58,248 nucleotides of DNA from an alpha proteobacterium SCGC AAA536-G10. Lineage in GTDB: Bacteria > Pseudomonadota > Alphaproteobacteria > Puniceispirillales > Marisalimonadaceae. How positions within the stretch are numbered: the first letter of the stretch is position 1; each line of letters starts with the position of its first letter. The stretch is taken from the NCBI GenBank assembly GCA_000384615.1, contig ARQU01000001.1, positions 306,246-364,493 on the forward strand. Reading direction: 5' to 3'. The position numbers were made by a program, and so were the translations under genes. Of this stretch, positions 3,275-20,324 are shown one piece after another. Under the pieces are notes generated by a model that saw only the letters and a program-made list of their open reading frames with translations, was not told where the DNA came from and did no database searches.

Positions 3275-3289
3275 ATTGAATATTTTAAT

Positions 3290-5275: not shown

Positions 5276-5291
5276 AATTTAAAGGAATATT

Positions 5292-6086
5292 ATGTCCAAA
5301 AAACCATTTCCATATCTTCCATTTATTAAAAGAGATAAAAAACCCAGAGAAACAGGTATTAACTATGTAAGATCACCTGTGTTGGTAGGTAGAACCGTAG
5401 AAGACTATCTTGAAGCATATGGGGACATGGTTGACATATTTAAGCTTTCAGGAAAACAAGCGGCTCAAATTAATGAAAAATCATTAATTGATTTCATTTC
5501 TACATGTAAAAAATTCAATGTCATGGTTTCTATAGGTAATCCTGTCATGGACGTTGCTTTAATAGGTGGTAGAAAAGCTGTTGATGATTATATAAATAAA
5601 TGTGTAGATTTAGGTGTTGATATAATTGAAATATCAAGTATTGCGCGATCAATTGATGATGACGATGTTTGTACATTAATTGAAAAAGTTTCTAAGAAAA
5701 GTATTAAAGTCCTTAATGAAATTGGTGTGGCTTTTGCTCACTCTGAAGTAAATGAAGAATCTATCTTTGTACAAAGATTAATCAATCAATCAAAAAAGTT
5801 TCTCAATGCCGGCTCGTGGAAGATCTTGTTAGAATCTGAGGGATTAACAGAAAATATGAATAAAGAAAATTATAGATGGAATATTATTGACAGAATTATT
5901 AGCCCTCTAAAATTATCTCAATTTATGGTTGAAGCAGATGATCAAGATGTCTTTTGTAAATATATAGAAATATATGGCCCAAATATTAATATGATGATCG
6001 ACTATTCACGTCTCTTGAAAATGGAGGATGCGAGAATTGGTTACGGTCCTTCGCAATTTCTTTGGGGAAAAGTTGTTAAATACTAA
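5292..6086 (+). CDS. ComA-like (phosphosulfolactate synthase family) protein
   Basis: This 264-aa protein closes the TTT operon, 16 bp after the transporter stop, with AAAGGA as ribosome site. It has ComA-type segments in order: 'VEDYLEAYGDMVDIFKLSG' (about 36-54), 'VDIIEISS' (about 110-117), 'KILLESEGLTEN' (about 177-188), and 'FMVEADDQDVF' then 'INMMIDYS' near the C terminus. In the family these strands carry the substrate and Mg-binding residues, including the EAxD-like pair. It is longer and more divergent at the N terminus than archaeal ComA (about 250 aa). Presence beside a regulated transporter suggests use in catabolism of the imported compound rather than coenzyme M synthesis. Exact reaction unknown. 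Confidence 0.65.
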   Translation: MSKKPFPYLPFIKRDKKPRETGINYVRSPVLVGRTVEDYLEAYGDMVDIFKLSGKQAAQINEKSLIDFISTCKKFNVMVSIGNPVMDVALIGGRKAVDDYINKCVDLGVDIIEISSIARSIDDDDVCTLIEKVSKKSIKVLNEIGVAFAHSEVNEESIFVQRLINQSKKFLNAGSWKILLESEGLTENMNKENYRWNIIDRIISPLKLSQFMVEADDQDVFCKYIEIYGPNINMMIDYSRLLKMEDARIGYGPSQFLWGKVVKY

Positions 6087-6148
6087 ATTAATTAAATACC
6101 CTAATTAATTCAAGTTATATTTTAAAGGTATTTTATTTTTGGTAGAAA

Positions 6149-6223
6149 TGGTGGGACTAACTGGGATTGAACCAGTGACCCCTTCGATGTCAACGAAGTG
6201 CTCTCCCGCTGAGCTATAGTCCC
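6149..6223 (-). tRNA. tRNA-Val (GAC), complete
   Basis: Minus-strand cloverleaf with acceptor GGGACTA (6223-6217) pairing perfectly with TAGTCCC (6159-6153), anticodon arm CTTCG-TTGACAT-CGAAG giving anticodon GAC, a T arm containing GGTTCAATC, and an encoded CCA at 6151-6149. A TATATT box lies 28 bp upstream (6257-6252). Its 5' 60-odd bases plus 9 bp of upstream sequence are repeated exactly 12,000 bp away, marking it as the attachment site of the neighbouring element. Confidence 0.97.
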
Positions 6224-6232
6224 ATTATCAAA
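6160..6232. repeat. Left 73-bp direct repeat (attachment site)
   Basis: Identical over 73 bp to 18160-18232. It covers the tRNA-Val gene from the T arm through the 5' end plus 9 bp of upstream flank. Beyond it, the next 40 bp on the right still match the other copy at about 26 of 40 positions, including the -10 box. Confidence 0.95.
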
Positions 6233-6580
6233 ATGTTGATTAAATGCTTGTAATATAGTCTACCTTAAACGTTGCTGTAAGGATTATATATATATAAATT
6301 TATGGGATTATCAATGATTTTTCATTAAAAGTGTGACACCAGTGTGACAGAAATTATCTCCCAAAAAGATGCGCCAAACTCTTATCCAAATAGATAAGTT
6401 TTATTTAAAATCAATTTAACCAATGGAATTTAATGCATTCAAATGGTCTTCATTTAGTACCTAAGACCCTATTTACTTGAATTAATATGATATGATTAAG
6501 ATAAACTACGGTAAACATCTTAATAATATTAAAGTTGAAACTTCCAAAATTATATAGAATGATAACTTGTTAAATGCTTA
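6233..6580. other. Left end of the element, non-coding
   Basis: This 348-bp stretch holds no convincing gene. It contains the upstream region of the tRNA-Val gene (TATATT at 6252-6257) and a pair of GTGAC repeats at 6333-6337 and 6344-6348. The rest is AT-rich sequence leading to the coiled-coil gene; no strong promoter for that gene stands out. Confidence 0.6.
6331..6349 (+). repeat. Paired GTGTGACA repeats, possible recombinase arm sites
   Basis: GTGTGACA occurs at 6331-6338 and 6342-6349, an 11-bp offset, one helical turn. A matching GTGAC pair with the same 11-bp offset and orientation lies at 18085-18100 near the other end. Lambda-type integrases bind such paired arm sites near both att cores; the assignment here is inferred. 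Confidence 0.45.
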
Positions 6581-8860
6581 ATGTGGATTGTTATGGCAGA
6601 AAATAGTTTATTGCAAAAAGGATTTTCAGACAATATTGATACAATATTTGATGAAGATACATTTAAAGAGAAACAAAAATACGCAACTTTTATTTTTTGG
6701 GTTGCAATAATTGTTGAAGTTTTTGCATCTGCTATAGGGTTGTTTTTTGCAACTTCTACCGGCTTTAATGCATATAATCAAATTCCTGAAAATGAAAGAT
6801 CTACTTCTACACTATTATACGCCATTCAAGGTTCACTTCCATTTTTTCTTATAGCAATAATTGAACCTCTAAAAATACCACTAGCGGGTGGTCTTTATAT
6901 GGTTCAGAGTTTTTGGTGGAAATTATTAATTTTTTTGTCTCTTTTAGGTTTGACTTTTGTAACTTTTGAAACTTTTTTGGCAAGTTTTGAACAAAATTTA
7001 AATAACATCACTGTTCAAGTTATTAAACAAGACAATCTTATAAGAAAAATTAATAAAAAATTATCTATTCTTGAAGAAGATAAGAACGTACTTAATACTG
7101 AGACAGAGGATGGTGTGTCAAAAAAAATTAAAAAATTAAACGATGACCTCTCCATTCAACAAAAAGAAAAATTAGAGGAAATAGCAAATAGATATAAGTC
7201 AAATTTAGAGCCTCTTCAGAAGAGAAGAGAGCAAAATACATTTAAACTTGCTAGTTTAAACACAAATATCAATACAGCTGACAAATTAAAAATTGATGAC
7301 CTAAAAAAACAAGTTGAAGAAAGACAAAATGAAAAAAATATAGTCATTAAGAAAGCATCAGACGATATTGAAAAATATCTTAAGTCGATACAAGGTGCCA
7401 GTGATCAAAAGCAAAAAGAAATAACAAAAAAGATAAATGACTATAAGAGAGACATAGAAAAGAAGAAAGGTGAGAGTAATATATTACAAAATGATGTTCT
7501 TTCTTTAAAAAGCCAATTGGCAACAAATTTAAATAAAATTGATGATGAAGAAAAAACAATCATTAGCGATCTAGATTCTAAAGAGAAAGATGAAATTGAA
7601 GAGCTAAAAAAAGGTTGGTTTCCGGGCAAAGAAATAAAAGAAGCTAAAGATTATTATTCTTCTCAAAAAAATGAGGAAAGACTTAACTTTGAAAATAAAA
7701 GAAATAGAGAAAAATCGAGATTAGATACTTCAATAAATAATAAAGTCGAAGTTATTAATAAAAATAAAGTGGATATAAATAATTTAGAACAATTAATCTT
7801 AAAACTTCAAGGTACAAATGTAGATATCAAACCCGCTGATCAAGAAAAAATTAATGAAATCAACAAAGAAAGAGACAAAAAAATTGAAGTTATTGAAAAT
7901 CAAATAAAAAAATTTAATAAATCAATTTCTCAAAAAGTGGATAGTACACTTGGGAAAAATAATGCTGAAATTAACGAATTAAACACCGCAAATAAAATTA
8001 TTGATGAAAAAATAGATGAACAAAGAAAGAGTAAAATCGTTGAAGAACAGAGAATAGCCAAAGAATTTGGTGAAAAAATAGAAGATAATAATAATACATT
8101 GAATTCAGAAATAAAAAGGCTTGCTGATAATAGATCTCAAAGAATACCTAATATTGAAAAAGAGATTAACAGTCTAAATATCCAAAAAGCAAAGGCTGAA
8201 GAAGAAAAAAGGATGAAGGCACAACGAAATCAAGTTTATAGATTTGCCGCCTTACTTGCTGGGAAAAATGACGTTATTGATTTAACAAAGGAAGAGATTA
8301 CATTCGCAACGACTTTGTGGTTTGGTTCATTAGCATTTGTTGCAGCTACTATTGGAACTGTTTTAGCTTTTACTCATTATATAATGAAAGATCCAAAAAA
8401 TTACACTTTAAGGAAAAAACTAAGTCCTTTTAGAAGATTATATTTTGCATTTTTTGTAATTATAAGAAAATTAACAAAACTTCTTTGGACTTTAATTAAA
8501 GTACTAGCTTCAATTTCAAGAGTGATTTTATCATTTGTAGAAATATTTAGAGGATTGATCGGAAGACCATTTCTTAGAACCCTTAGACTATTAGGCGTTG
8601 CAATCAGAAAAAGGTTAAATAAACCTATAATCAAAGAGAAAATTGTAGAAAAAGAAGTTGAAGTTATAAAAGAAGTTGAAGTTATAAAAGAAGTTGAAAA
8701 GCCAGTTGAAGTTATAAAAGAAGTACCAGTTCAAAAAATTGAAATAAAAGAGGTACCAAAAGAAGTCATACGAAAAGAAATTAGGTACGTCCCACTTTAT
8801 TCTTCTGAATCTGGTCTGGTTGACGCACCTAAAAATATTAAAGAAGATAAAAAAAAGTAG
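6581..8860 (+). CDS. Large membrane-anchored coiled-coil protein, unknown function
   Basis: This 759-aa protein is not recognised. Three hydrophobic helices lie at about 37-58, 77-97 and 115-135. They are followed by a long, highly charged coiled coil (about 140-555) rich in Lys, Glu, Asp and Asn, then another membrane helix at about 575-601 and an amphipathic hydrophobic stretch at about 615-650. The tail (685-745) is built of VEVIKEV-type repeats. The shape suggests an inner-membrane protein with a long cytoplasmic or periplasmic rod, such as a sensor or scaffold. The protein encoded at 9331-10137 has a similar VEV.KE stalk, suggesting a partnership. Its stop abuts the convergent TerB-like gene with no spacer. 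Translation could begin at ATG 6581 or at ATG 6593. Confidence 0.8.
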   Translation: MWIVMAENSLLQKGFSDNIDTIFDEDTFKEKQKYATFIFWVAIIVEVFASAIGLFFATSTGFNAYNQIPENERSTSTLLYAIQGSLPFFLIAIIEPLKIPLAGGLYMVQSFWWKLLIFLSLLGLTFVTFETFLASFEQNLNNITVQVIKQDNLIRKINKKLSILEEDKNVLNTETEDGVSKKIKKLNDDLSIQQKEKLEEIANRYKSNLEPLQKRREQNTFKLASLNTNINTADKLKIDDLKKQVEERQNEKNIVIKKASDDIEKYLKSIQGASDQKQKEITKKINDYKRDIEKKKGESNILQNDVLSLKSQLATNLNKIDDEEKTIISDLDSKEKDEIEELKKGWFPGKEIKEAKDYYSSQKNEERLNFENKRNREKSRLDTSINNKVEVINKNKVDINNLEQLILKLQGTNVDIKPADQEKINEINKERDKKIEVIENQIKKFNKSISQKVDSTLGKNNAEINELNTANKIIDEKIDEQRKSKIVEEQRIAKEFGEKIEDNNNTLNSEIKRLADNRSQRIPNIEKEINSLNIQKAKAEEEKRMKAQRNQVYRFAALLAGKNDVIDLTKEEITFATTLWFGSLAFVAATIGTVLAFTHYIMKDPKNYTLRKKLSPFRRLYFAFFVIIRKLTKLLWTLIKVLASISRVILSFVEIFRGLIGRPFLRTLRLLGVAIRKRLNKPIIKEKIVEKEVEVIKEVEVIKEVEKPVEVIKEVPVQKIEIKEVPKEVIRKEIRYVPLYSSESGLVDAPKNIKEDKKK
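8654..8726 (+). repeat. Short tandem repeats encoding VEVIKE units
   Basis: The 18-bp unit GAAGTTGAAGTTATAAAA occurs twice in tandem (8654-8671, 8672-8689), and most of it recurs after 8704. It encodes the EVEVIK stalk repeats in the C-terminal tail of the coiled-coil protein and may vary in copy number. Confidence 0.7.
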
Positions 8861-9259
8861 TTATAATTCTGTTGAGTATCTTAACATTGCAGAACCTTTA
8901 ACCTTTTCTATCGTATCTTTATCAATATTAAAAATTTTTTCCATGAGTTTGATAAAATCATTTTCAGGTGGAACTAATTCAAAATTAACACAACATAACT
9001 CAACGCCTAGAGCGTAAGCAGTTTCTAACTCTTTTTTACTCAAATTATCTTTTATTCCACTTAAAATATATTTTGTGTCTATACCAGATTGAATTTTAGC
9101 ACTTAAATTTTTAAGCTCTTTTTTAATTTCATCTGATGAAATCTTTTTTAGTATTGGATAACTTTTTGTATATTGAGAAATAATAATCTTTTCTTCTTCA
9201 TGAAGCACTCCATCTGAAAGTGCTGCTAAAAATAAAACTTGAATTATTTCATTATGCAT
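8861..9259 (-). CDS. TerB-like protein
   Basis: This 132-aa acidic, all-helical protein resembles the TerB family of tellurite-resistance and stress-response proteins. Near the start is 'LFLAALSDGVLHEEEKIII', the TerB signature of a helix with an acidic turn (DG.l..eE), which is implicated in metal binding in the family. A second helical half follows with 'KKELETAYALGVELCC' and 'VPPENDFI'. There is no signal peptide, so it is cytoplasmic. It is convergent with the coiled-coil gene and divergent from the YfaP-like gene (71-bp gap). TerB domains often work with membrane and vWA partners in Ter-type stress systems. A link to its membrane-protein neighbours is inferred from that and from position. 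Confidence 0.65.
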   Translation of the reverse strand: MHNEIIQVLFLAALSDGVLHEEEKIIISQYTKSYPILKKISSDEIKKELKNLSAKIQSGIDTKYILSGIKDNLSKKELETAYALGVELCCVNFELVPPENDFIKLMEKIFNIDKDTIEKVKGSAMLRYSTEL

Positions 9260-9330
9260 TTTTTGTCCTAAAAAAGATTAGACTATTAAAGATAAATGCT
9301 TTTAGATAAATTTATCAAGTTAAATATTTA

Positions 9331-10137
9331 GTGAGTTATACTTTGGCAAAAAAGGAACCTGACGAATATACTATCCGAGATTATTCAGCTATTGATAGAC
9401 AAATCAACGAAATAGCCAATAGAGAAAGCGTACTTACTAATAAATTAAAACAAGATAACTTAAGAAAACTAGCTATAACTTCTTTTATTTTTGCAGGAGC
9501 CCTAAGTGCTATTATAATTGCTTCAGGGATTACTGTTTGGTTGATTAAAGATCAGAAAATAGTTGAAGTTGTAAAAGAAAAAATAGTGGAAGTTACAAAA
9601 GAACCAAAGATCATAATAGAACCTCACCATCATAATCATTCACAAAACTCATCATCTAATAACATTTCCAATCTAAATCCAAATGCAAAAATAATTGATA
9701 ATTCTAATAATAACCAATTAAATAAAGAGATAAATGATAGACTACCAAACATTCAAGGGTCAATTGGTAAAAAACTTAATTTCTCTCTAATTTGGAACAA
9801 TTATGATGACCTTGACTTACATGTTAAGACGCCTTCAGGACAAATTATTAATTATCGAAAAAAACAGTCTTCAGGCGGACACCTTGATGCTGATAAGAAT
9901 GTAATAACGAAAATACTTAATCCCATAGAAAATATAAGATGGGATAGCAACCCACCTAAAGGAAAGTATGAAGTATTTACAAAACTTTATAAAAAAGATA
10001 ACCGAAATAAATTTCAGAATACTAATTTCAAAATAATTATTCATAAAGATCAGCAAATTGTAAATTCTTATGAAAATACCTTACCTCCAAATAGTACTGG
10101 TAGAATGGTGAAATTATTTGATTATAATGTTGATTAA
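9331..10137 (+). CDS. Single-pass membrane protein with YfaP-like beta domain
   Basis: This 268-aa protein starts at GTG 9331. A cytoplasmic N terminus (1-45) precedes one membrane helix (about 47-72), a VEVVKE/VEVTKE stalk (75-92), a His cluster and an Asn-rich linker (97-135). The C-terminal domain (about 144-268) carries WNNYDDLDLHV (155-165), SGGHLDAD (181-188), PIENIRW and PKGKYEV. This is the pattern of the YfaP/DUF2135-type beta-sandwich seen in secreted or vWA-linked proteins. The stalk matches the tail of the coiled-coil protein upstream. It overlaps nothing and is followed after 6 bp by the YHYH gene, so the two are probably co-transcribed. Role unknown; an envelope sensor or binding unit is a guess. 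Confidence 0.7.
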   Translation: MSYTLAKKEPDEYTIRDYSAIDRQINEIANRESVLTNKLKQDNLRKLAITSFIFAGALSAIIIASGITVWLIKDQKIVEVVKEKIVEVTKEPKIIIEPHHHNHSQNSSSNNISNLNPNAKIIDNSNNNQLNKEINDRLPNIQGSIGKKLNFSLIWNNYDDLDLHVKTPSGQIINYRKKQSSGGHLDADKNVITKILNPIENIRWDSNPPKGKYEVFTKLYKKDNRNKFQNTNFKIIIHKDQQIVNSYENTLPPNSTGRMVKLFDYNVD

Positions 10138-10143
10138 TTAAAT

Positions 10144-10674
10144 ATGTTTCTTTGCAAAATAATATTAATTATTTTTATATTTTCCTTTCCCTTAAAAGCT
10201 TATTCTCATGGCGGTGGGCTGAATAAATCTGGGTGTCATAATAATAGAATCACAGGAGATTATCATTGTCATAGAGGAGGAAACTCCAGCAAAAGCATTC
10301 AAAAATTTTCAGGAATTAAATTAAATGAAGACTACTATAATATGTGGCTTGCAAATCAATTAGGCGGACGTACAGAAGTTACTTTCAACTACAACTATAA
10401 TCTTGAAAGCTCATCTCCACTTATCGCGTCAGTAAGAGTAGATGTAGTTACCAATGAGTATGTCATTGAAGGTGGTCTAGATAAAAGAAGTAGCCTAGAT
10501 AGTATTCAACAAGCAGTTTTTGCATCTACAATTACTGGCAAAAAACCAGCTGTAGCCATATATGATACAAATGGAATGTGGGGAAAATTTGAGCATAGAA
10601 TCTGGTCAGCTGCTAAAAAATTAAATGTTAAATTTTTTTGGGTAAGTGGTAATGAAATAAAGGATGTTTATTAA
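10144..10674 (+). CDS. Secreted YHYH protein with PD-(D/E)XK nuclease-like tail
   Basis: This 176-aa protein has a signal peptide (1-21) and then a YHYH motif (22-46) with the family pattern HGGGLNKSGCHNNR..GDYHCHRG. The C-terminal half (about 75-176) shows RVDVVT (D100), YVIEGG (E109), LDKRSS (K114) and SIQQAVFAS (Q122-Q123). This is the D...E...K plus Q arrangement of PD-(D/E)XK-like domains found in small secreted proteins, where the corresponding segment reads 'E.....W.E.IGQ..YYA'. It is therefore a candidate periplasmic or extracellular nuclease, or an inactive relative. It lies 6 bp after the YfaP-like gene and ends at a hairpin shared with the convergent small gene. The nuclease reading is inferred from motifs. 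Confidence 0.65.
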   Translation: MFLCKIILIIFIFSFPLKAYSHGGGLNKSGCHNNRITGDYHCHRGGNSSKSIQKFSGIKLNEDYYNMWLANQLGGRTEVTFNYNYNLESSSPLIASVRVDVVTNEYVIEGGLDKRSSLDSIQQAVFASTITGKKPAVAIYDTNGMWGKFEHRIWSAAKKLNVKFFWVSGNEIKDVY

Positions 10675-10691
10675 CTTGAATAAAGCTAGTT

Positions 10692-10708
10692 GGTTAACTT
10701 AGTTAACC
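10692..10708. terminator. Bidirectional hairpin between convergent genes
   Basis: GGTTAAC-TTA-GTTAACC forms a perfect 7-bp stem with a 3-nt loop, followed by ATTTATTT on the plus strand. It overlaps the stop codon of the minus-strand gene at 10703. Confidence 0.6.
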
Positions 10709-10909
10709 ATTTATTTCTATGGATTTGTTTTTCTTTTTTTCTATTCTCCACAAAGTGAAAAAAAGAACAATCAAGGCAGGTTGTAACAACACAAAAATTA
10801 TTAAATTTGCTAGATAATATCCATGTCCAAACTCACCCGGCTTACCCCCTATTACTTGAAGGACATAAACACAAAGCATAAAAATTTCTTTTATAATTTC
10901 TTCAAACAT
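10703..10909 (-). CDS. Small membrane protein, unknown function
   Basis: This 68-aa protein has two hydrophobic segments (about 8-20 and 33-55) and a basic C terminus (RIEKKKNKSI). It is not recognised. It lies 17 bp downstream of the secreted-protein gene at 10927-11454 on the same strand, so it is likely co-transcribed with it. Confidence 0.6.
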   Translation of the reverse strand: MFEEIIKEIFMLCVYVLQVIGGKPGEFGHGYYLANLIIFVLLQPALIVLFFTLWRIEKKKNKSIEING

Positions 10910-10926
10910 TATTTAATCCATTAGTT

Positions 10927-11454
10927 TTACTTATGTTTAAACATATCAAAGAAAGATGATTCATAATATCCTTTAATATTCCTAGATAAATCTTTTAGAA
11001 ATCTTGAAATTGGTACATTTATTGTTTTTACGTCATCTATTGCAGCAACATTAATATGTGTCATAAGACCACTATCTCTTAGCATAAGATCTGCTGCAAT
11101 TGTTTTAGTAACTTCCGAGCTTTTGCTATCTTTTTTAAAAACTTCTTTTGTTAGCTCAACAATTCTTCGCTTATTAACGTGTGTCGAAGAGAGGATTATT
11201 GTATCTTTAGAATTATTGCTATTTTTATGCCTAAGCGCATAAATAAATAGTTGAACAAAAACTCTTCCATCTTTGTCTTCTCTTAACGTTAAATTAGGAA
11301 AATTAGAAACCAATTTTTTAGTTTTAGTCCTAACTAAATTTTTTAGGCTTTTATCTTCACCAACTATATTTAAATAAAAAGGGAATTTTGTTTCTGCATA
11401 TGAGAATGATGAAAATAATAATAGTTTTAATGTTAATAAAAATAAAAATCTCAT
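10927..11454 (-). CDS. Secreted protein of unknown function
   Basis: This 175-aa protein has a clear signal peptide (about 1-20, ending SYA before ETKF). The mature part is basic and helical-beta mixed, with 'DGRVFVQLFIYALRH' and 'IILSSTHVNKRRIVEL'; no family is recognised. AAGGAG lies just upstream of ATG 11454. It is the first gene of a two-gene minus-strand unit with the small membrane protein and is divergent from the polymerase-like gene. Confidence 0.65.
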   Translation of the reverse strand: MRFLFLLTLKLLLFSSFSYAETKFPFYLNIVGEDKSLKNLVRTKTKKLVSNFPNLTLREDKDGRVFVQLFIYALRHKNSNNSKDTIILSSTHVNKRRIVELTKEVFKKDSKSSEVTKTIAADLMLRDSGLMTHINVAAIDDVKTINVPISRFLKDLSRNIKGYYESSFFDMFKHK

Positions 11455-11751
11455 ATTTTTCTCCTTAATTATTTTTCAAAATACAAAACATTTTTGTTTA
11501 AAAATTGTTAGGAAAAAGGCAGAAATCACAATTGTCATAAAAATGCAGCATTAATAAATTATAATTAAATAATCAAAGATGATCTATCAAGACCTCTAGA
11601 TGTTCATAGATGGTCAGAATATCCCGAAATAAATAAATCAATTAACCTAATCTATGAGAATTATTTCAAGTGGCAAAATCCTTATCTTGTAAAAAAACAT
11701 ATTAAGGTAGTTTTACTAGATTTATATATTGCATGGACAGAACACCAAAAT

Positions 11752-12978
11752 ATGAAACTTGGAGTACATATGTATCGAAATGCTTATAAAACTAAGTCTA
11801 GATATAATGAGTTGCACATTTCTCAAAAAACAATTGATGTTGTAAAACGGTTAAAAGAGGTTGGGTTAATTAACCTGACTAATGGTTTTTATGATCCAAC
11901 TGGTTTGCACAGCAGAATAACACGAATTTGGTCAACAAAAAAACTTATAAAGCAATTTAAAATTACAAAAATGAAGAAACATATAATTGTTAATAATTCG
12001 AATAGAGAAACAATTATCTTACGTAATGAAAATAAAAAAAATATTGAGTATATTGATAACGAAAAATCGATAAAAATGAGAGCTTCACTACAAGAATATA
12101 ACCGCTTACTTGCCAAAACATTCATTGATATACCCGAACTTGATAAACCGCTAATAAACTATAAGGAAAAGTACATTCCCATATCTTCCAGTGATTGTTT
12201 TATTACAAGAATTTTTAATAATGGTAGATGGAGTGATGGAGGGAGATTTTATGGAGGGTGGTGGCAGAGAATTCCTTCATTTTATAGATCAAAAATATAT
12301 ATTAATGATGAACCAACTATTGAGGATGATTACAAGTCACTTCATCCAATCCTGTTATATGCAAAAAAAGGTTTAGACTATAACAAACTTAATCGAGGGG
12401 ATGCATATGACATAAATATCCCCCAGATGAAATGTAAAGATGATTCACGAAAACTTGTAAAAAGACTCATGCTAATTGCTATAAATGCAAAAGATGAACC
12501 TTCAACTTTTAGAGCCTTGAAGAATGAACTCCAAGATCAATTACCTAATTATTCTTTCAACTTTAAAGAATTAAGATCAATACTTAACAAGATTAGAGGG
12601 AAGCATATTGAGATTGCTGGTGATTTTTGTTCTGGTAAAGGTTTACTTTTAATGAATATTGATGGGCAAATAAGCGAATACATCATTAACAAATTTACCC
12701 AAAATAATATTCCTATTTTATGCATTCATGACAGTTTCATAGTTTCATATAAACATGATAACTATCTAAGAAAAATTATGACTGAGGCTATTTTTAATAT
12801 TTCACAAGTTGATCTTCCAAGTATTGATCGTAATGGTATAGGTCTTACTCAATTGAACTCAACTAAATACTTAGACAGAGATTATTATTTAGAAAATATA
12901 AAATATCTTAGTAAACAAAACCAAAACAAATCAAATGGATATATATATAGAAAACAAATATTTAACAAATATTTATAA
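11752..12978 (+). CDS. Polymerase-like protein with palm-domain motifs A, B and C
   Basis: The 408-aa frame from ATG 11752 has a winged-helix-like N-terminal part (about 18-68, 'ISQKTIDVVKRLKEVGLI', then 'HSRITRIW'). A core follows: NGRWSDGGRFYGGWWQ (157-172), motif A-like DYKSLHPILLY (193-203), motif B-like R233-K237 in RKLVKRLML, and motif C-like CIHDSF (324-329). HDSF is the motif C of T7-type RNA polymerases, and HD is the motif C core of family A DNA polymerases. No exonuclease domain is visible. It is probably the replication polymerase or initiator of the element (inference). The frame is open upstream to ATA 11569, adding 61 plausible codons (DLSRPLDVHRW...), so the true start may be non-ATG or mutated. 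No ribosome site is obvious at either point. Confidence 0.7.
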   Translation: MKLGVHMYRNAYKTKSRYNELHISQKTIDVVKRLKEVGLINLTNGFYDPTGLHSRITRIWSTKKLIKQFKITKMKKHIIVNNSNRETIILRNENKKNIEYIDNEKSIKMRASLQEYNRLLAKTFIDIPELDKPLINYKEKYIPISSSDCFITRIFNNGRWSDGGRFYGGWWQRIPSFYRSKIYINDEPTIEDDYKSLHPILLYAKKGLDYNKLNRGDAYDINIPQMKCKDDSRKLVKRLMLIAINAKDEPSTFRALKNELQDQLPNYSFNFKELRSILNKIRGKHIEIAGDFCSGKGLLLMNIDGQISEYIINKFTQNNIPILCIHDSFIVSYKHDNYLRKIMTEAIFNISQVDLPSIDRNGIGLTQLNSTKYLDRDYYLENIKYLSKQNQNKSNGYIYRKQIFNKYL

Positions 12979-13029
12979 CTTAATAAATTAATATACTAAA
13001 TATCTAGGCTACTACTACTTAGACCACCT

Positions 13030-13050
13030 CTTTCCATTACTAATACTTTT
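13030..13050 (+). repeat. 21-bp direct repeat, copy 1
   Basis: CTTTCCATTACTAATACTTTT is identical to 13519-13539. The two copies bracket the single gene at 13083-13487. Confidence 0.85.
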
Positions 13051-13082
13051 GACCATTATATTTGTTTACGGATAATTATTAG

Positions 13083-13487
13083 TTAATTACAAGAATAATC
13101 TAAACCGTTAAAAGCATATGCGTCTAGTCCAAGTGCATCTATTTCTTGAAGTCTTTTCTCTGGCTGCGGCTGTATATTAAGCCATGTTGGTATTTTCTTT
13201 TTGTATTTAGAGCAATCATATGGTGAATAATCAAGATATTCGTAAACACTTAAATAGAAGTCATGAAAATGAATAGTATCATTTATTAACTCAGGTGGTC
13301 TAAAACCATATTCTATAAGTTTTTCTACTATGATATACATATATCTTCCATCCATAGTTGAAAACCTAGTTAATTTACCATCATCATCGTCAGACATTCT
13401 ATCGTTAAGCCACCCTACCCAGCCATTTGGATATTTAGCACGGACGATATCTTTACTTGTAAACAAACTCTCGAATTGACTCCTCAT
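13083..13487 (-). CDS. Hypothetical 134-aa protein bracketed by 21-bp repeats
   Basis: This soluble, acidic and aromatic-rich protein is not recognised. It has no signal peptide or membrane helix. Visible features are 'YPNGWVGWLNDRM' (about 19-31), a DDDDGK loop and 'TIHFHDFYLSVYEYLDY' in the middle. AAGGGGAT lies about 10 bp before ATG 13487, so it is a believable gene. The gene is flanked by perfect 21-bp direct repeats, which suggests it arrived or could leave as a single-gene cassette. Confidence 0.6.
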   Translation of the reverse strand: MRSQFESLFTSKDIVRAKYPNGWVGWLNDRMSDDDDGKLTRFSTMDGRYMYIIVEKLIEYGFRPPELINDTIHFHDFYLSVYEYLDYSPYDCSKYKKKIPTWLNIQPQPEKRLQEIDALGLDAYAFNGLDYSCN

Positions 13488-13518
13488 TCTATATAAATCC
13501 CCTTACTCTATACCTCAT

Positions 13519-13539
13519 CTTTCCATTACTAATACTTTT
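13519..13539 (+). repeat. 21-bp direct repeat, copy 2
   Basis: Second copy of CTTTCCATTACTAATACTTTT, 489 bp after the first. It lies in the spacer between the genes at 13083-13487 and 13529-14062 and overlaps the 3' end of the latter. Confidence 0.85.
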
Positions 13540-14062
13540 TATAGCTTTTATTTATTTTGATATAACTTCTTAAAACAAAGATAGAAAATGCCACATAAAA
13601 CAATCCTATACATAAATAATGTAAGTTATTTGTTGAAATTATACTATGCAATTGATTTAGACCAGAAATAGGAAAAAAAGGCATCATATCCCGATGCATT
13701 ACACTATCAAGAAGCAATTGTGAATAAGCACCCACAAAGGCTCCACACCAAGCAGATAATCTTGTTATTTTAATCTCAACCTCAAATAAAGAAAACTTTT
13801 TGGTGTATAAAATTATATTCCATAATTTCAAGCCTACCTCACAGAAAGATCTGCAAAATAAAGCAACAAATATAGCTATTAAAGACACACCTAAAAAAGT
13901 ATGAAAAAATTTATGAGAAGGAATTCCAGTCGTATATATATAAAATAAAACTTCTGAGTCAATTATGATGTTTGTTAAAGTAAAAATTGAAAAACTAAAA
14001 TATTTTGGAAATAAAGATTTAACTGAAGTACCTGCCATTAAATGAAAAGGTGTAAAAGGCAA
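13529..14062 (-). CDS. Membrane protein of the YdjM/DUF4184-like type
   Basis: This 177-aa protein begins MPFTPFHLMAG, the classic start of membrane-embedded putative metal-dependent hydrolases (YdjM/DUF457 and DUF4184 groups). Conserved polar spots follow: NIIIDSEVLF (about 31-40), HKFFHTFLG (about 50-58), and a second half with WCGAFVGAYSQLLLDSVMHRDMMPF (about 110-134), where family members have H/D metal-ligand positions. Four hydrophobic helices are visible. The function of the family is poorly known. The usual 'SH' before LLDS is SQ here. It stands alone on the minus strand inside the element. Confidence 0.6.
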   Translation of the reverse strand: MPFTPFHLMAGTSVKSLFPKYFSFSIFTLTNIIIDSEVLFYIYTTGIPSHKFFHTFLGVSLIAIFVALFCRSFCEVGLKLWNIILYTKKFSLFEVEIKITRLSAWCGAFVGAYSQLLLDSVMHRDMMPFFPISGLNQLHSIISTNNLHYLCIGLFYVAFSIFVLRSYIKINKSYKKY

Positions 14063-14167
14063 AAATCAAATCTCCTTGAATTAAAAATTATTAATTTATA
14101 AATCCAATGACATGTAGTTAATTTATAAATATTTTAATAATATTATTAATATGATAGTGTCTATATT

Positions 14168-14668
14168 ATGACTGATCAAATATTGCTTATGGGTAAACTT
14201 AGAAAGTGGTTTTGGTATTATGGTGTTCTGCCATTAGTTTTTGCTTATTTAACATGCCTAAACTTTTCTGCTGAGTTTGTAAATATTCTTCTCATTGAAA
14301 ACAGATCTATAACTTTATACTACATGGCTGAATTATTATATTATTCAACTTTATGCATAGGTTGCTTGATGATAATTTGGTGCATAATAAATGCAATTCG
14401 TGTTTACATAATATCATCAAAGATTACTGCTCTTGAACTTAAAGGTAAAAAGTACTCTTTCAATACATCAGTAATTTTGTTTCCAATTATTGCTTTTTTC
14501 GGATTTATTCCTCTTGCATTAATTTTAAGTAAAACAAAAATATATTTTCCATTATTTCCTTTAATTGAACCAATAGCCCAAGACTTAACTCCTTACCTTT
14601 TCCCAATCTATCTGTTAATTACAAATGCTTCAGAATATATGTTTGGAAACTTTTCTTATTCTTATTAA
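14168..14668 (+). CDS. Four-helix membrane protein, unknown function
   Basis: This 166-aa protein has four hydrophobic segments at about 16-38, 58-86, 100-122 and 137-155, with few charged residues. No family is recognised. It stands between a divergent membrane-protein gene and the broken secreted-protein gene. An AT-rich spacer precedes ATG 14168 without a strong ribosome site, so the start is tentative. Confidence 0.5.
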   Translation: MTDQILLMGKLRKWFWYYGVLPLVFAYLTCLNFSAEFVNILLIENRSITLYYMAELLYYSTLCIGCLMIIWCIINAIRVYIISSKITALELKGKKYSFNTSVILFPIIAFFGFIPLALILSKTKIYFPLFPLIEPIAQDLTPYLFPIYLLITNASEYMFGNFSYSY

Positions 14669-14752
14669 TACATTTCTTAATTTTTACTATTTGCCACGAA
14701 CTTACCTTATTTCATACATAATCAAGTCTTAATTAGGCTTATAAATGTTATT

Positions 14753-15897
14753 ATGAACCTAAAAGTATTTTGTGTTTCATTTATAAATCTCCTAGTTGCA
14801 TTAGCAGTTCCCGCTGCTAATGCCTCCCCCTCTAATCCTGAAAGTTTCTTATCACAATCAACTATAGAGTATAAAAACTCCAATTTCTATAAATCTGATT
14901 ATCTCATTGCTAAATATTTAGGTAGTGAGAATTCAAATATTACGAAGGTCATAAAAACTATTCATAAAAGGAAAAGTAAACCAACACCAACATCCTTTAT
15001 CGATGGCGAATTTTCAAATGAATTTCTACAATTTTTTTCACAAGACCACTTCATCAATGGGGATCACAAAAGAGCGATAATGATAATAATATTCTTATAA
15101 AAATTAATGGGAATGAAAATCAATATGTTTCGGTTTGGGCAAAGCCATATATAGAAACATGGTACATTTTAGCAAAAGATAAAGAAAAACAAATTGCTTA
15201 TACTGTGGGTATGCATAATGCTAAAATAAGAATTGGAAAAATTCATAAAACTGATCGATTACTAAAACCTTGTGATACATTTGATATCAACGGACCTATT
15301 CAATATTTTTATGAACCAATTTTTGAAGATATTAACAACAATGGTAAAAAAGAACTTTTACTAAAATATAACGTAACTGTTGCAGACGGATATATTCAAG
15401 TTTTAGATATTTTTGTTCCAATAGTAAAAAATAATTATTGTTATTTAAGTCATAAGAAAAGTTATTATGGAAGAAATGGGTTCGCTATCTTTGAAAATGG
15501 AAAAATTGTTGTGAGTCATCAAACTAGTAAAAAGGGGGAATCAGTTTTGGGATCATCACTTCAAATAGAAAAAATATACAGTTCCAATGGCGAATTAATT
15601 AATGAGAGAAAAAAATCCAATTTTCTAAAAAGTTCAAATATAACCATACTTGATCCATATAAAAAAGCTGAAGAAACAAATAACATAAAAATGTATCAAG
15701 CCGTCTTAATGGTCTGTATCAAAGGAAAAGATAAGTCAAAAAATAATTGTGAAGAACTTGCTGATACTAGAGGTCCGTACAAAACTGAAGATCAGTGTAA
15801 AGATAGGATTTTAGAAATAAGTGAAGATCTTCCAAAGTACAAACCTAATTTTGAAGCTAGAGGCTATTTATGTGAAGAACAATTAGTTAAAGATTGA
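14753..15897 (+). pseudogene. Secreted protein gene split by a frameshift in a T7 run
   Basis: Two frames, 14753-15100 and one ending at 15897, join into a single coherent protein of about 380 aa. The first begins with a signal peptide (about 1-24, ending ANA before SPSN). The second frame stays open well upstream of its first ATG at 15205 and reads sensibly back to the T7 run at 15032-15038 (TRPLHQWGSQKSDNDNN, VSVWAKPYIETWY). Adding one T restores a continuous frame: LQFF then TRPLHQWG. The C terminus has spaced cysteines and a 'DTRGPYKTEDQC' segment typical of small secreted alphaproteobacterial domains. Function unknown. The break may be a sequencing error, a true mutation or transcriptional slippage. 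Confidence 0.8.
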
Positions 15898-15903
15898 ACA
15901 TCT

Positions 15904-16791
15904 TTAGTTTTCTACACACCCGTAAATATATGATGATTTAGGGTCACTAGACTGAGGATACATTGATAGCAAAGGCTCTTTCGAAAACAAAATTTTAAAT
16001 TTTCTATAACATTCGTCTTTATTTGAATAAATTGTATTATATGGGAAAATCATCTTTTTCCTTCTCTCACTACCTGAAAAAAGAGCATAATCCATCATAC
16101 TAATGACATAACCTATCCAACCATTACTTCTTGAAGTTTTTTGTAAATTTTTTATATCAAATCTTTTAATTAATCTTATACTAATCATATCGTTGATTAA
16201 TTGAACTTGGGGAAATGTATTTTCAGTCTCTAAAGTGAGCAAAGCGCTGTTCATTAGATCAATAAAAAAATTAGAGGCTGAAGTGTTACGTAGAAGCATA
16301 GACCCTATCTCAGGCCCCATCATACTAGAACCAGCCAATGCACTTACATCGACTGCATTAAAAAATCTATTTTCGTCAAATAATAATTGAGTATTCAATT
16401 CAAATGGTAAGTTTAATTTATCATCCATTTTACAATTTATTTTATAATCAAAATCTTTAAGAAACTGATGTTTGTTAGAGTAGATATTTGAGTTTCCACA
16501 GCTAAGTTGACCATTATCAATCTTTTTATATACAAAATCTTCTATTTGGAATTTTTTTGTTTTATATTTTGAAAATTCGTTTGATAATGTTGCAAGTAAA
16601 GGTGCAAATTTTTTTTCAAATTCAGGAGCAAATTTTAAAAAAACAACATCACAAAATTCGCTTGTAATTTTAGTAATGTTGCCTTGAATTGTTATTTGTT
16701 TCCCAACATATTTATTACAAAATTGTTTATGATTTTCTCTAAAATTACCTGCAAATGAAGGATTTAAAAAAGAATTACAAATCGTAAACAA
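15904..16791 (-). CDS. Secreted protein of unknown function, start uncertain
   Basis: The frame from TTG 16791 gives 295 aa. It begins with the end of a signal peptide (FTICNSFLNPSFA before GNF). Four spaced cysteines occur (for example FCNKY, EFCDVV, SCGN, NCKMD) and the C terminus ends YIYGCVEN. No family is recognised. The start is suspicious. Just upstream lies a T9 run (A9 at 16790-16798 on the plus strand); in the shifted frame a TTG preceded by AAGG would give MNLIFPKNLKIFLLFF running into this signal peptide. One base fewer in the run would join them. It is convergent with the broken gene upstream, with a 6-bp gap. Confidence 0.55.
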   Translation of the reverse strand: MFTICNSFLNPSFAGNFRENHKQFCNKYVGKQITIQGNITKITSEFCDVVFLKFAPEFEKKFAPLLATLSNEFSKYKTKKFQIEDFVYKKIDNGQLSCGNSNIYSNKHQFLKDFDYKINCKMDDKLNLPFELNTQLLFDENRFFNAVDVSALAGSSMMGPEIGSMLLRNTSASNFFIDLMNSALLTLETENTFPQVQLINDMISIRLIKRFDIKNLQKTSRSNGWIGYVISMMDYALFSGSERRKKMIFPYNTIYSNKDECYRKFKILFSKEPLLSMYPQSSDPKSSYIYGCVEN

Positions 16792-17119
16792 AAAAAAATA
16801 ATAGAAATATTTTTAAATTCTTTGGAAAAATTAAATTCAATTAATTAACCTTATGAAGTTTATAAGTATATTTTATACATAATATAATTTATTTAAAGTT
16901 TAAATTTTAAGTTACCTGTACAGGTTATGGTGTAAAATAAAAGGCTATCTCTTTTACGTGCCATAGTACGTGTACCCCCAGTGTCCCTTGCATACCCTTT
17001 ATATTCTCATAAATATAATTTAAAACACCATTTAAAAGCGATTTAAGAGTCACTGAGTCTATATAATTTCATGAATCCTTACGTTTACTTATCTCACAAA
17101 CTTTGACTCTGTATGTGTC
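16792..17119. other. Non-coding spacer downstream of integrase
   Basis: No gene is visible in these 328 bp. The spacer holds a 12-bp perfect palindrome, ACCTGTACAGGT at 16914-16925, about 125 bp upstream of the secreted-protein gene's start, which may be an operator. Nearby is the imperfect repeat TACGTG...TACGTG (16957-16975). Confidence 0.5.
16914..16925. promoter_or_regulatory. 12-bp palindrome ACCTGTACAGGT, possible operator
   Basis: A perfect palindrome in the only long spacer between the integrase and the secreted-protein gene. Its size and symmetry suit a dimeric regulator, but no regulator gene is seen in the element. Confidence 0.35.
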
Positions 17120-18070
17120 TTATTTCAAGCCTTTATAATGAGCATATCTGAATAGCTGCGATATTGTTCTGTGCCCACTAATTGACGCAATGTGAGGTAT
17201 AGAAAGATTCTGCTCAAATAGACGACTAATGGCTTCATGCCTAAAATCATGGAACCTTATTTTTATATTCAGTTTGTTGCACAACCTTTGATAACAAAGC
17301 CTCAAACTATTAACGCTTATTGGAAATATTTTGTCATTAACCATATCTAAGTTTTTTAAAACTATTCTAACATCATTATTGATTTTGATGGATCGAGCAT
17401 AACCAGTCTTTGTATTATCAATGTTAATAAGACTGCGTTTTAAATCTATATCAGACCATTTAAGAGATAGTATTTCTCCCCTTCTCATAGCTGTATATAA
17501 GGCTATTAAAATAATGGGTTTAAGATACATATTACTGTGCTTTGAAGCCTCTTCTAGTAACATTTTAATATCATGATCATTTATACGCCGAACAGCTCTT
17601 TGATGGATCTGTGGGAGTCTAATGCCTGCAAAAAGGTCAAAAGGTACGTCCCAGTCCCATTCTAGTTTTGCAACTTGCAGCGCATGTTTTACAATGCCAA
17701 ATTCACGTATAATTGTTGATGGCTTGACGCTCAATAATCTCTTATCTCTGTATTCAGCTATCTGCGCTGCTGATAGCATATTAAGAGGTAATGCAACACA
17801 TTTGTTTTTCATAAAGGCATTAATCATAAAGGTTTCAGATGAAGCTGATTTCTTATGCGGAATTACAGTATCTTTATATTTTACTAAAATCTCTTGAAGT
17901 GTTTTGGGACGGTATTGCATCCCTACTTTTATATTTTTTTCGAGCTCTATTTCTTTGGATCTTGCCCACCGTCTTGCAAGATCAAGGGTATGAAAAGTTG
18001 CAGATGTCCCCTTTCCTCTTATTCTTACTTGTACTTGATACTTGTTATTTCGTTTACGAATTGTTGCCAT
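17120..18070 (-). CDS. Tyrosine recombinase (integrase) of the tRNA-Val element
   Basis: This 316-aa site-specific recombinase has a short N-terminal arm-binding-like domain (1-50, MATIRKRNNKYQVQVRIRGKG), a core-binding helical domain (about 55-150) and a C-terminal catalytic domain. Catalytic residues are in place: R196 in TAMRRGE, K221 in TKTG, H274 and R277 in HDFRH, H300 in SGHRT, and the nucleophile Y309 in RYAH. Length is slightly short for phage integrases but complete. It lies 89 bp inside the right repeat and reads away from it. A GTGAC pair at 18085-18100 sits directly upstream of its start and could both bind the protein and let it control its own promoter. It should catalyse recombination between the two 73-bp repeats. 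Confidence 0.95.
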   Translation of the reverse strand: MATIRKRNNKYQVQVRIRGKGTSATFHTLDLARRWARSKEIELEKNIKVGMQYRPKTLQEILVKYKDTVIPHKKSASSETFMINAFMKNKCVALPLNMLSAAQIAEYRDKRLLSVKPSTIIREFGIVKHALQVAKLEWDWDVPFDLFAGIRLPQIHQRAVRRINDHDIKMLLEEASKHSNMYLKPIILIALYTAMRRGEILSLKWSDIDLKRSLINIDNTKTGYARSIKINNDVRIVLKNLDMVNDKIFPISVNSLRLCYQRLCNKLNIKIRFHDFRHEAISRLFEQNLSIPHIASISGHRTISQLFRYAHYKGLK

Positions 18071-18084
18071 ATGTCTCTCCTATT

Positions 18085-18100
18085 GTGACTGTAGAGTGAC
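18085..18100 (+). repeat. Paired GTGAC repeats upstream of integrase
   Basis: GTGAC at 18085-18089 and 18096-18100, an 11-bp offset identical to that of the left-end pair (6333, 6344). They are candidate integrase arm sites or an int operator. Confidence 0.45.
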
Positions 18101-18159
18101 AACAACGAAAAATATGACTTACATTTGTAGCTAAACTGTTGATATTATGGTAAAAACCT

Positions 18160-18232
18160 ACTGGGATTGAACCAGTGACCCCTTCGATGTCAACGAAGTG
18201 CTCTCCCGCTGAGCTATAGTCCCATTATCAAA
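18160..18232. repeat. Right 73-bp direct repeat, truncated tRNA-Val copy
   Basis: Identical to 6160-6232. On the minus strand it contains the tRNA-Val 5' end through the T arm but then reads AGGTTTTT instead of the acceptor TAGTCCC, so the acceptor stem cannot form and the copy is not functional. An ACCA happens to follow (18151-18148). A TATATT box lies upstream at the same distance as in the complete gene. Confidence 0.95.
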
Positions 18233-18294
18233 TTATTCATTATGTGGTACTAATATAAATAATGTTAAACGACCAAATGTAAAGTTAAATAATC

Positions 18295-18666
18295 ATGAGA
18301 AAAGTTATTTTGAAATGTAAGGGAAAAGAATTAGTTTTCGAGTTAAGAGATACATTAACTGCTGACATAATTTATAATTCATTGCCGCTAAAATCAAAAA
18401 TACAGAAATGGGGAGAAGAAATTTATTTTGAAACTGGATTAAGCATTAAATTAGAAAAAAACGCTAAATCAGTTGTAAATATTGGTGAAATTGCTTTTTG
18501 GAATAGTGGATCTGCTATAGCCATAGGATATGGAAAAACTCCAATTTCTAATGGCAACGAAATAAGACTAATCTCACCTTGCAATATATGGGCAGACTGC
18601 AAATTTGATAAAACTTACGTTGAAAACATAAAAGAAAATGAGACAATTATTTTAGAAAAGTTTTAA
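18295..18666 (+). CDS. Cyclophilin-like fold protein (TM1367/DUF3830-like)
   Basis: This 123-aa soluble protein has the signature of the small cyclophilin-like family: 'TADIIYNSLPLKSKIQKWGEEIYFET' spread over about 23-48, 'GEIAFWNSGSAIAIGYGKTP' (about 63-82) and a C-terminal 'ISPCNIWADC'. In the family the WG.EIYF and G.iayW segments form the beta barrel. Peptidyl-prolyl isomerase activity is not established for these proteins. It is the first gene right of the tRNA-Val element, 62 bp from the repeat, so it is the original chromosomal neighbour. Its stop is 2 bp from the convergent thioesterase gene. Confidence 0.8.
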   Translation: MRKVILKCKGKELVFELRDTLTADIIYNSLPLKSKIQKWGEEIYFETGLSIKLEKNAKSVVNIGEIAFWNSGSAIAIGYGKTPISNGNEIRLISPCNIWADCKFDKTYVENIKENETIILEKF

Positions 18667-18668
18667 AT

Positions 18669-19106
18669 TTATAGTTCTACAAATATAGTATCTAATGTTT
18701 TTTTGAAATCATAATTTAGAGGTATTGGGGTATTTGTTTCTCTATTTACATATACATGTACAAAAAAACCATCCGCAGAAGAAATTTCATCATTTCCATG
18801 AAATAAACCTACTTCATATCTTACTGAACTAGTTCCAATTTTGGTTACTCTTATCCCCGCATCGATTTCTTCTGGATATTGAAAAGAAGAAAAATAATTG
18901 CAACCTGATTGAACAATTAAACCGATATTTTTACCATACTTTATATCAATTAAATTGTTTTGAATTAGCCATTTATTAACTGCAGTATCAAATAATGCGT
19001 AATAAACAATATTATTCATATGGCCATAAATATCATTATCATTCCACCTTGTGCTTATTTTAGAAAAAAAATTATATTCACTTCTATTAGAGGGTTTTTT
19101 TTTCAA
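18669..19106 (-). CDS. Acyl-CoA thioesterase, 4HBT hotdog family
   Basis: A hotdog-fold thioesterase of about 145 aa. The 4HBT motif is clear: 'STRWNDNDIYGHMNNIVYYALFD', with the catalytic Asp in DNDIYGH, followed by 'IGTSSVRYEVGLF' strands. It hydrolyses short or aromatic acyl-CoA esters in the cytoplasm (family knowledge). The frame is open to TTG 19136, but that would overlap the repaired end of the aminotransferase. TTG 19106, giving LKKKPSNR, starts just at that gene's restored stop and is preferred. No strong ribosome site is visible; translational coupling to the upstream aminotransferase is likely. Confidence 0.8.
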   Translation of the reverse strand: MKKKPSNRSEYNFFSKISTRWNDNDIYGHMNNIVYYALFDTAVNKWLIQNNLIDIKYGKNIGLIVQSGCNYFSSFQYPEEIDAGIRVTKIGTSSVRYEVGLFHGNDEISSADGFFVHVYVNRETNTPIPLNYDFKKTLDTIFVEL

Positions 19107-19107
19107 T

Positions 19108-20324
19108 TTAAATTCCTTTGCCCTTAAATTCTTCAAGAGAACATATTTTAGATGAAATAAAATCTATTTTGTTTTCAGGCAAAGAAGCGATATTCACACG
19201 ACCATCCGGCATAAGGTATATTCCATTTTTTTTCTCAAGATCATTATACCTTCACGGGATATAGGTAAAAGAGAAAACATACCATTTTGAACTTTTAAAA
19301 AACTAAAATAATCTGTTTGTTGCTTTTCTTGTAAAGAATTTGCAAGTTTATGTCTCAGAGACACAATTCTGTTCTGCATTGTTCTAATTTCTTCAAGCCA
19401 GGCTTTTTTTAAAACTTTATGTTTTAACAAAGTATTAATTATTTCTGCAGCATGATCGGGTGGATGAAAATAAAGTTCTCGCGCTATCTCACTTAACATA
19501 GTTTCTAAAGATTTGCTTTTAACTTTATCGACATCAGTTATTACCGCAATCATTCCACATCGATCTCTATATACACCAAACGTTTTACTGGATGAAACTG
19601 TGATAATTACCTCTGGTACTATTTGGACTAATTTTCTAATTCCAAGAACATCATCTATTATACTTTTCCCAAATCCTTGATATACTAAATCAATAAACGG
19701 TAATATCCCTTTTTTAAGACAAATATTGGCGACTTGTTCCCATTGTTCTAAAGATAAATCTGCACCAGTTGGGTTATGACAACATCCATGTAATAACAAT
19801 GAATCTCCTGATTTGAGTTTATTCAAGTCATTAATCATATTATCAAAATCTAAGAAATTATTTTGTTCATTATAATAAGTATGTTTGGAAATTTTCAATC
19901 CAGCTTTTTCAAACATAAATGGCTGTTGTCCCCAAGTAGGATCAGGTATAGATATAAGTTTATTTTGTACATTATTTTTTATCAATTCACCTGCGATACG
20001 TAATCCAGAACCAGCACCTGGTATTTGTATAGCGCCAACTTTGTCTTTTCGTTCAGAAAGAAGATCTTTACCAAGAACTAAATCTAAAATATTTTTGCAA
20101 TATTCACTATTACCTACGGGAGTTTTATAAGATTTTGACTTTTCATTTTGATACAAAATACCTTCAGCTTTTTTTACAGCTTTAAAAATTGGAGCCTTAC
20201 CTTTTTCATCCCTATAAATTCCAATGCCCAAATCAATTTTTGTATCTCTTACATCATTTTCTAAATCTTTAAACATTTGTCTGGTTGAATCAAGTAACGG
20301 ATCTGGAATGTTAAAATGTCTCAT
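19108..20324 (-). pseudogene. Aromatic/aspartate aminotransferase with C-terminal frameshift
   Basis: This class I PLP-dependent aminotransferase transfers amino groups between aspartate or aromatic amino acids and 2-oxo acids. Family features are present: 'IPDPTWGQQPF', 'LLHGCCHNPTGADLS', 'PFIDLVYQGFG', and the PLP lysine in VSSSKTFGVYRDRCG. As read, the frame ends early at 19194 with ILRKKMEYTLCRMVV. In the next frame the expected C terminus continues from the poly-A run: NGIYLMPDGRVNIASLPENK, to a stop at 19108. One extra A in the run (T8 at 19226-19233 on the plus strand) restores the normal length of about 400 aa. This is either a sequencing error or a recent mutation. Confidence 0.85.

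Follow-up and report, generated by a model that had tools for sequence, protein, structure and literature searches.

A predicted divPolA2/TV-Pol-like family-A palm polymerase on a tRNA-Val-integrated element of a SAR116-cluster alphaproteobacterium and its probable role in element priming or replication

The present analysis of the window, a 58,248-nt stretch of DNA from an alphaproteobacterium placed in the SAR116 cluster by its named relatives L053 and L054, assigns the protein encoded at 11569–12978 (+ strand) to the PHROG 4756/divPolA2 family on the basis of its sequence. On balance, we favour the view that it is a minimal divPolA2/TV-Pol-type palm polymerase of family A, in which a probable winged helix precedes a fingers/palm core, and that it would prime and/or copy the excised form of the element that encodes it. 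The kind of protein is already known, the family being divPolA2/TV-Pol-like by its residue pattern and profile; new here are the bacterial integrative context with its empty site, the count of recombinase-linked loci, the N-terminal signal for a winged helix and the residues seen at the sugar-selecting positions. divPolA2 entered the literature as a phage protein whose role was unclear (PMC11348598, available part); here it is seen repeatedly beside tyrosine recombinases at alphaproteobacterial tRNA genes. This recurrent recombinase/tRNA context, together with the empty site, moves the balance of likely roles towards replicating or priming the element. The tRNA-integrated elements also represent small systems in which the role of divPolA2 can be tested. 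The literature searches, confined to open-licence papers, brought up no account of these SAR116 elements, without proving that there is none.

The window protein matches phrog_4756, labelled as of unknown function in PHROGs, at 2e-50 over 339 positions. PHROG 4756 is the phage group that was named divPolA2 in 2024 and that occurs in Rheinheimera barbaviruses and their relatives (PMC11348598, available part). The divPolA2 representative AUR84708 (L129:25472-26761) is matched both by the window protein in BLASTP (5e-9) and by a profile of 18 relatives (1.4e-26 in a one-sequence search, with 365 of its 430 residues aligned), which identifies the window protein as a divPolA2 homologue. Neither the whole protein nor its profile led to anything useful in sequence searches of Pfam, NCBIfam and the PDB: the three Pfam matches of the window protein were weak (0.038–0.2) and none was a polymerase, and neither an exonuclease model nor PF00476 (DNA polymerase I) nor RNA_pol was matched at E up to 10, in agreement with the lack of an exonuclease domain asserted in the initial annotation. 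A single-sequence scan of viral contigs with the polymerase was likewise unproductive. In tblastn searches (E up to 1e-3), 236 phage records were matched, 115 of them from Rheinheimera and 97 from Vibrio, with two covering at least 80% of the query, alongside four plasmid records. The distribution among bacteria is sporadic, with at least one match in 35 of 101 genomes, two to four copies in several of them and three in the window's own genome; across the class, phrog_4756 was matched in 24 of 289 genomes (both counts include the own genome). In the tree, the window protein sits beside its relative in L053 and viral and bacterial members are intermixed, the deep part being unsure because of long branches, of which that of AUR84708 is the longest. 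Besides, relatives occur in viral contigs (L069–L088), many of 83–93 kb, and in 11 viral loci a candidate DnaG-type primase gene, by the look of its sequence alone, lies near the polymerase relative.

The 408-aa, ATG-started ORF at 11752–12978 (+) was confirmed, and its frame is open from 11569, straight after a TAA at 11566–11568, giving 469 codons in all. In the eight best full-length matches, the alignment begins at residue 2–7 of this longer frame, so the wider span 11569–12978 given in the initial annotation is correct. The catalytic residues that it had named were also found where it placed them, namely motif A DYKSLHP at 12328–12348 (D193, codon 12328–12330), motif B RxxxK at 12448–12462 (R233, 12448–12450; K237, 12460–12462) and motif C IHDSF at 12724–12738 (H326–D327, 12727–12732), all on the + strand. 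Their conservation was assessed in a 73-row alignment of the 469-codon window frame and polymerase ORFs above 120 bits, in which identical copies were entered once, gapped rows were omitted per column, and near-copies as well as two broken-gene pieces (L106, L113) were retained; from a separate set of 44 extracted frames, five (L004, L011, L020, L021 and L053) were omitted as broken, partial or duplicate. Both palm aspartates are kept throughout (D193 in 73/73, D327 in 71/71), as are, nearly or entirely, the motif B residues (R233 in 71/72, K237 in 72/72), the motif C neighbours (H326 in 70/71, S328 and F329 in 66/71 each) and D217 (70/72). Upstream of motif A, a GGRFYGGWWQRIP...R segment (12238–12288, +) aligns with GRLSS..PNLQNIP of DNA polymerase I, and its G164, R165 and R179 are each present in 73/73 rows. 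After thinning to below 90% identity (64 rows), D193 was found in 64/64, D327 in 62/62, K237 in 63/63 and R233 in 62/63 rows. A chance motif pattern was rejected from the conservation in both alignments and from the profile controls given below.

The relation to DNA polymerase I was examined by hhalign against a set of 24 sequences (19 bacterial, 5 phage). The family profile scored 56.1 (probability 90.9, P 1.1e-6) over 197 columns, with the GR...Q.IP segment, motif A, RxxxK and motif C all in register, compared with at most 25.1 in 60 column shuffles, 12.1 for the reversed profile and at most 27.0 for 30 unrelated natural neighbour-gene clusters. Differences concern the missing exonuclease, the shorter motif spacing of the window protein and two positions, one lying five residues beyond the motif A Asp and the other (O helix) twelve beyond the motif B Arg, both of which we take to be sugar-selecting. 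At the former, DNA polymerases I have Glu in 24/24 and T7-type RNA polymerases Gly in 7/7, whereas 69 of the 73 family members carry His (56/73, the window included) or Asn (13/73). At the latter, Tyr is found in 24/24 and 7/7, respectively, in contrast to Asn (60/73, the window included) or Gln (9/73) in 69 of the 73; all nine Gln pair with Asn at the motif A position, a pairing that shared ancestry can explain. A relative in L084 keeps Tyr twelve residues after the motif B Arg, which supports the alignment register there. The His/Asn and Asn/Gln combination is unlike that of both polymerase classes.

As to the N-terminus, the winged-helix-like character noticed in the initial annotation is weakly supported. 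A profile (A4) of 23 N-terminal segments, corresponding to 11764–11991 (+) of the window, retrieved 13 sequences from the PDB (E up to 10). Transcriptional regulators take the top four places (1xma, 0.0046; 5e1w, a MarR-family protein, 0.034; 7el2 HpaR, 0.034; 9fa0 ScoC, 0.078), while a few unrelated proteins are among the remaining nine. Of these regulators, 1xma presumably belongs to the PadR family and HpaR and ScoC to the MarR family. Aligned by hhalign with 22 PadR domains, the segment scored 21.9 (P 2.5e-4, 23 columns) against at most 14.4 in 100 shuffles, and when ten windows along the protein were compared with PadR, the two overlapping the segment reached 22.1 and 20.8 and the others at most 10.6. 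When the N-termini of single members were searched against Pfam, 19 families were matched weakly, each by one member, and winged-helix families are among them. An N-terminal winged helix thus appears likely and hints at the function of the divPolA2 N-terminal domain, for which the available part of PMC11348598 gives no detectable similarity to known domains.

The polymerase gene is part of a 12,000-bp element (6160–18159) integrated in a tRNA-Val gene and bounded by two copies of a 98-bp attachment repeat (6160–6257 and 18160–18257). In a congeneric contig (L166, G001:C21), the site is empty, in that window positions 5200–6257 (92%) and 18160–19166 (95%) are contiguous there with a 98-bp overlap. 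An intact tRNA-Val (gac) with a 3' end CCA, called by ARAGORN and by alignment, lies beside the left flank (6149–6223, − strand); a second, pseudo copy with a mismatched acceptor 3' side (ARAGORN; 18152–18223, −) lies beside the integrase, a tyrosine recombinase at 17120–18070 (−; PF00589 2.4e-24, phrog_1 8.4e-51). The intact tRNA-Val of the window is at the end away from the integrase, that of L170 and L171 at the end next to it. The tRNA-Val site (window 6149–18271) carries differing inserts within the genus; in G035 and G038, it holds inserts of ∼6.4 kb with a related integrase and no polymerase match on that contig. All element ORFs of at least 80 aa except two opposite the integrase were scanned with Pfam, and among them only the integrase and a TerB match (8861–9259; 3.7e-5, just at the curated cut-off) reached curated cut-offs. 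No helicase, primase, relaxase, SSB or virion gene was recognised in these ORFs by Pfam, and the early description as a non-phage island is borne out in that a tRNA-Val-integrated element is present and no phage structural gene exceeded the cut-off in the ORFs scanned.

The remaining cargo comprises, on the + strand, a 759-aa ORF at 6581–8860 without a Pfam family at E up to 0.1, a 268-aa ORF at 9331–10137 (phrog_1735 of unknown function, 3.7e-21; a tail-fibre assembly Pfam at 0.002, below cut-off) and ORFs of 115 and 230 aa at 14753–15897, whose counterparts in the same cluster are single, longer ORFs in L053, L054 and L092. The convergent neighbour of the polymerase (13083–13487, −) encodes a small 134-aa protein without a Pfam family, of which 21 copies were found in 18 of 101 genomes; 11 of the 21 genes lie within 1.3 kb of a polymerase match and the other 10 on contigs without one. 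A 31-bp direct repeat (90%) flanks this gene in the window (13020–13050 and 13509–13539). These repeats were dropped as a cassette signal: of the loci scanned, L053 alone shares their 22-nt core with the window. The 20-nt motif TTGTCATAAAAATGCAGCAT (11532–11551, +), located upstream of the polymerase gene, has one match in the window against 0.01 expected. It recurs in L054, L092 and, with one mismatch, L053, three of the four closest relatives; the fourth, L091, lacks it. A promoter scan of 11400–13150 was discarded since its seven sites were fewer than in shuffles (12.3).

Outside the window, the genomic context was surveyed in 43 bacterial loci, i.e. stretches fetched round polymerase copies (the window, L053, L054 and L089–L128) that were chosen from the matches and are not all of them; several are clipped by contig ends, some contain broken copies, some come from one genome, and a locus without a recombinase counts as a miss. 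Within 8 kb of the polymerase, a tyrosine recombinase is encoded in 30 of these loci, a serine recombinase in four and either of the two in 31. In 21 of the 30 tyrosine-recombinase loci, a tRNA gene lies no more than 300 bp from the recombinase. The own genome has seven PF00589 matches in 2.16 Mb, from which ∼0.06 would be expected per 17.4-kb stretch, a figure based on one genome and on a different model from the locus count. Several individual loci are worth describing. In a viral contig (L084, IMGVR_UViG_3300037296_000253, 1–11377), a 3.37-kb unit is present in three identical copies, two of them in direct tandem with a 24-bp overlap; of its two large ORFs, one encodes a distant relative of the polymerase and the other a short tyrosine recombinase (PF00589 6e-37). 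The own genome's second polymerase element (L089, G000:C13, 4868–16553) lies next to a tRNA-Arg gene and carries three caspase-domain proteins (Peptidase_C14) and a trypsin-TPR protein as cargo. In L123 (G205:C14, 1–20000), a unit of ∼8.95 kb encoding a polymerase relative, a plasmid RepA, a ParA-like ATPase, a resolvase and an adenine methyltransferase is repeated at ≥99% identity, perhaps reflecting a circular plasmid assembled more than once round. The idea that the polymerase is the sole replication protein of the latter unit was dropped, as the unit also encodes a RepA_C protein; with RepA adjoining it, the polymerase need not be the initiator there.

Taken together, the protein probably serves primer or DNA synthesis for the excised element, with excision, origin binding and priming as inferred steps. 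In this scheme, the recombinase would excise the element from the tRNA-Val site, the winged helix would bind element DNA after excision, the palm would make a primer and/or a new strand with D193 and D327 as metal ligands, and host enzymes would supply the remaining replication functions. The proposal follows the TV-Pol argument of 2008 (PMC2579912) and the biochemistry of the distant primase CcPol-MP as reported in the available part of PMC10061031, and the recombinase linkage (30/43), the empty site in L166 and the RepA/ParA-like unit that includes a relative speak for it. Against an element role stand the lack of a recognised helicase or SSB, unlike in the helicase-linked PolA-SSB primases (PMC10061031, available part), the polymerase-less inserts at the same tRNA-Val site, the 134-aa genes without a polymerase match (10/21) and, in the window copy and its nearest relative, the missing usual start codon and a frameshift, respectively. 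A bolder version, in which a winged-helix initiator and a minimal family-A palm would be joined in one chain that recognises the origin, primes and extends, appears rather unlikely to us; were it true, small tRNA-integrated elements of marine alphaproteobacteria would replicate without a helicase or primase of their own, and the divergent sugar-selecting positions might reflect a new mode of nucleotide selection or a de novo start.

Other roles for the palm have to be weighed against priming or copying of the element. The initial annotation had left the choice between a DNA and an RNA enzyme, and its minimal single-subunit polymerase stands as far as a family-A-like palm is predicted; the family is, however, an already known one and its profile is nearer to DNA polymerase I. 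That the protein transcribes the element, playing the part that the single-subunit RNA polymerase of T7 plays for its phage, we consider improbable, although the authors of the divPolA2 study leave transcription open (PMC11348598, available part). As the initial annotation had pointed out, the HDSF motif C is a likeness to T7-type enzymes; six of the seven compared have HDS, yet HDS is also found in 2 of the 24 DNA polymerases I, so that this spelling alone is not diagnostic. In hhalign against the seven T7-type RNA polymerases, the family scored 39.3 (shuffles at most 20.2; reversed profile 19.4; DNA polymerase I against RNA polymerase 22.6), but over only 53 columns around motif C, and by profile the family is closer to DNA polymerase I. 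Moreover, the Gly that all seven have five residues after the motif A Asp is replaced by His or Asn in the family, and the distance from K237 to D327, 90 residues in the window protein and 82–126 in the five relatives shown, compares with 121–125 in 18 DNA polymerases I and 161–183 in six RNA polymerases. The spacing rows were picked by patterns requiring motif A residues, so that 18 of 24 and six of seven are listed, while the residue counts were repeated on the full alignments (24/24 and 7/7). T7-type RNA polymerases have a specificity loop between motifs B and C, for which a spacing about half as long leaves little room, and no promoter-recognition N-terminus was recognised in the window protein. 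Membership in the T7-type family (PF00940) was therefore rejected from the absent Pfam match, the absent motif A Gly and the spacing; in 190 alphaproteobacterial genomes, that family had no match, with the controls likewise blank.

An accessory DNA polymerase for repair, gap filling or translesion synthesis, distinct from the element's replicase, is a possibility to which we give limited weight. According to the available part of PMC11348598, barbaviruses with divPolA2 carry a separate PolB, and the authors do not regard divPolA2 as their replicative enzyme, suggesting repair or transcription instead; its neighbourhoods there are variable. The two to four copies in several genomes fit this reading too, while its recurrent association with site-specific recombinases and tRNA sites in bacteria speaks against it. 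The sporadic distribution and the caspase-domain cargo of one related element are reminiscent of a regulatory or defence protein on a polymerase fold, performing for instance untemplated synthesis on phage sensing, but the polymerase had no PADLOC match at E up to 0.1 and is also present in the phage records, and we regard this as very unlikely. A further explanation concerns the window copy itself and is compatible with every role proposed for the family. Its frame has no ATG, GTG or TTG upstream of 11752, and relatives start ∼60 codons earlier: the ORFs of L053, L091, L092 and L093 begin with a Met a few codons before a conserved RPLDV segment, and a Met also precedes this segment in L054. 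With no usual start codon at the homologous start, three cases are conceivable: initiation at a rare codon, a shortened product starting at 11752, or decay of the copy. Decay, with the full protein no longer made, is a possibility to be taken seriously, if not the one we prefer: the nearest relative (L053), 95% identical to the window protein, is broken by a frameshift. On the other hand, all 469 codons are open, rare start codons exist, and dN/dS is below 1 (0.35 against L053 over 419 codons, 0.26 against L054 over 468 codons), which speaks for purifying selection, albeit in the past.

Returning to the predicted family-A palm polymerase acting on the element, the window protein and divPolA2 as described in the available part of PMC11348598 are alike in their palm motifs, the lack of an exonuclease, the extra N-terminal domain and the existence of paralogues. 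They differ in the carrier, which for the window gene is a tRNA-integrated element of the chromosome with a tyrosine recombinase next to the polymerase rather than a tailed-phage genome, and in the weak winged-helix similarity, as opposed to none to known domains; AUR84708 itself has FDEV where the window protein has HDSF. With the PolA-SSB primases (CcPol-MP; PMC10061031, available part), it has in common an A-family catalytic domain and a carrier element that encodes a site-specific recombinase. In contrast to those analysed in that source, which are all helicase-linked, no helicase or OB-fold partner was recognised here, the 134-aa neighbour being convergent and without a Pfam family; CcPol is near housekeeping Pol I, whereas the window protein was unmatched by the Pfam DNA_pol_A model. 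In Microcystis phage LMM01, tried as a TV-Pol reference, profile A2 matched nothing in a search without a positive control, and no link could be made between the PF00476 matches of this phage and the published TV-Pol. A D5-like helicase, fused or adjacent in a subset of TV-Pols (PMC2579912), was not recognised among the element ORFs scanned. Otherwise, the likeness to TV-Pol extends to invariant Arg residues before motif A, two Asp, and a fingers Asp plus RxxxK, a pattern represented here by R165, R179, D193, D217, R233, K237 and D327, with R179 or R165 as hairpin Arg and D217 as fingers Asp being inferred roles. Lastly, TV-Pols, further characterised by a bi-helical coiled-coil thumb, are linked to integrase, resolvase or transposase genes, occur on integrase- or resolvase-bearing elements and count alphaproteobacteria among their hosts (PMC2579912), just as a tyrosine or serine recombinase accompanies the present family in 31 of the 43 loci.
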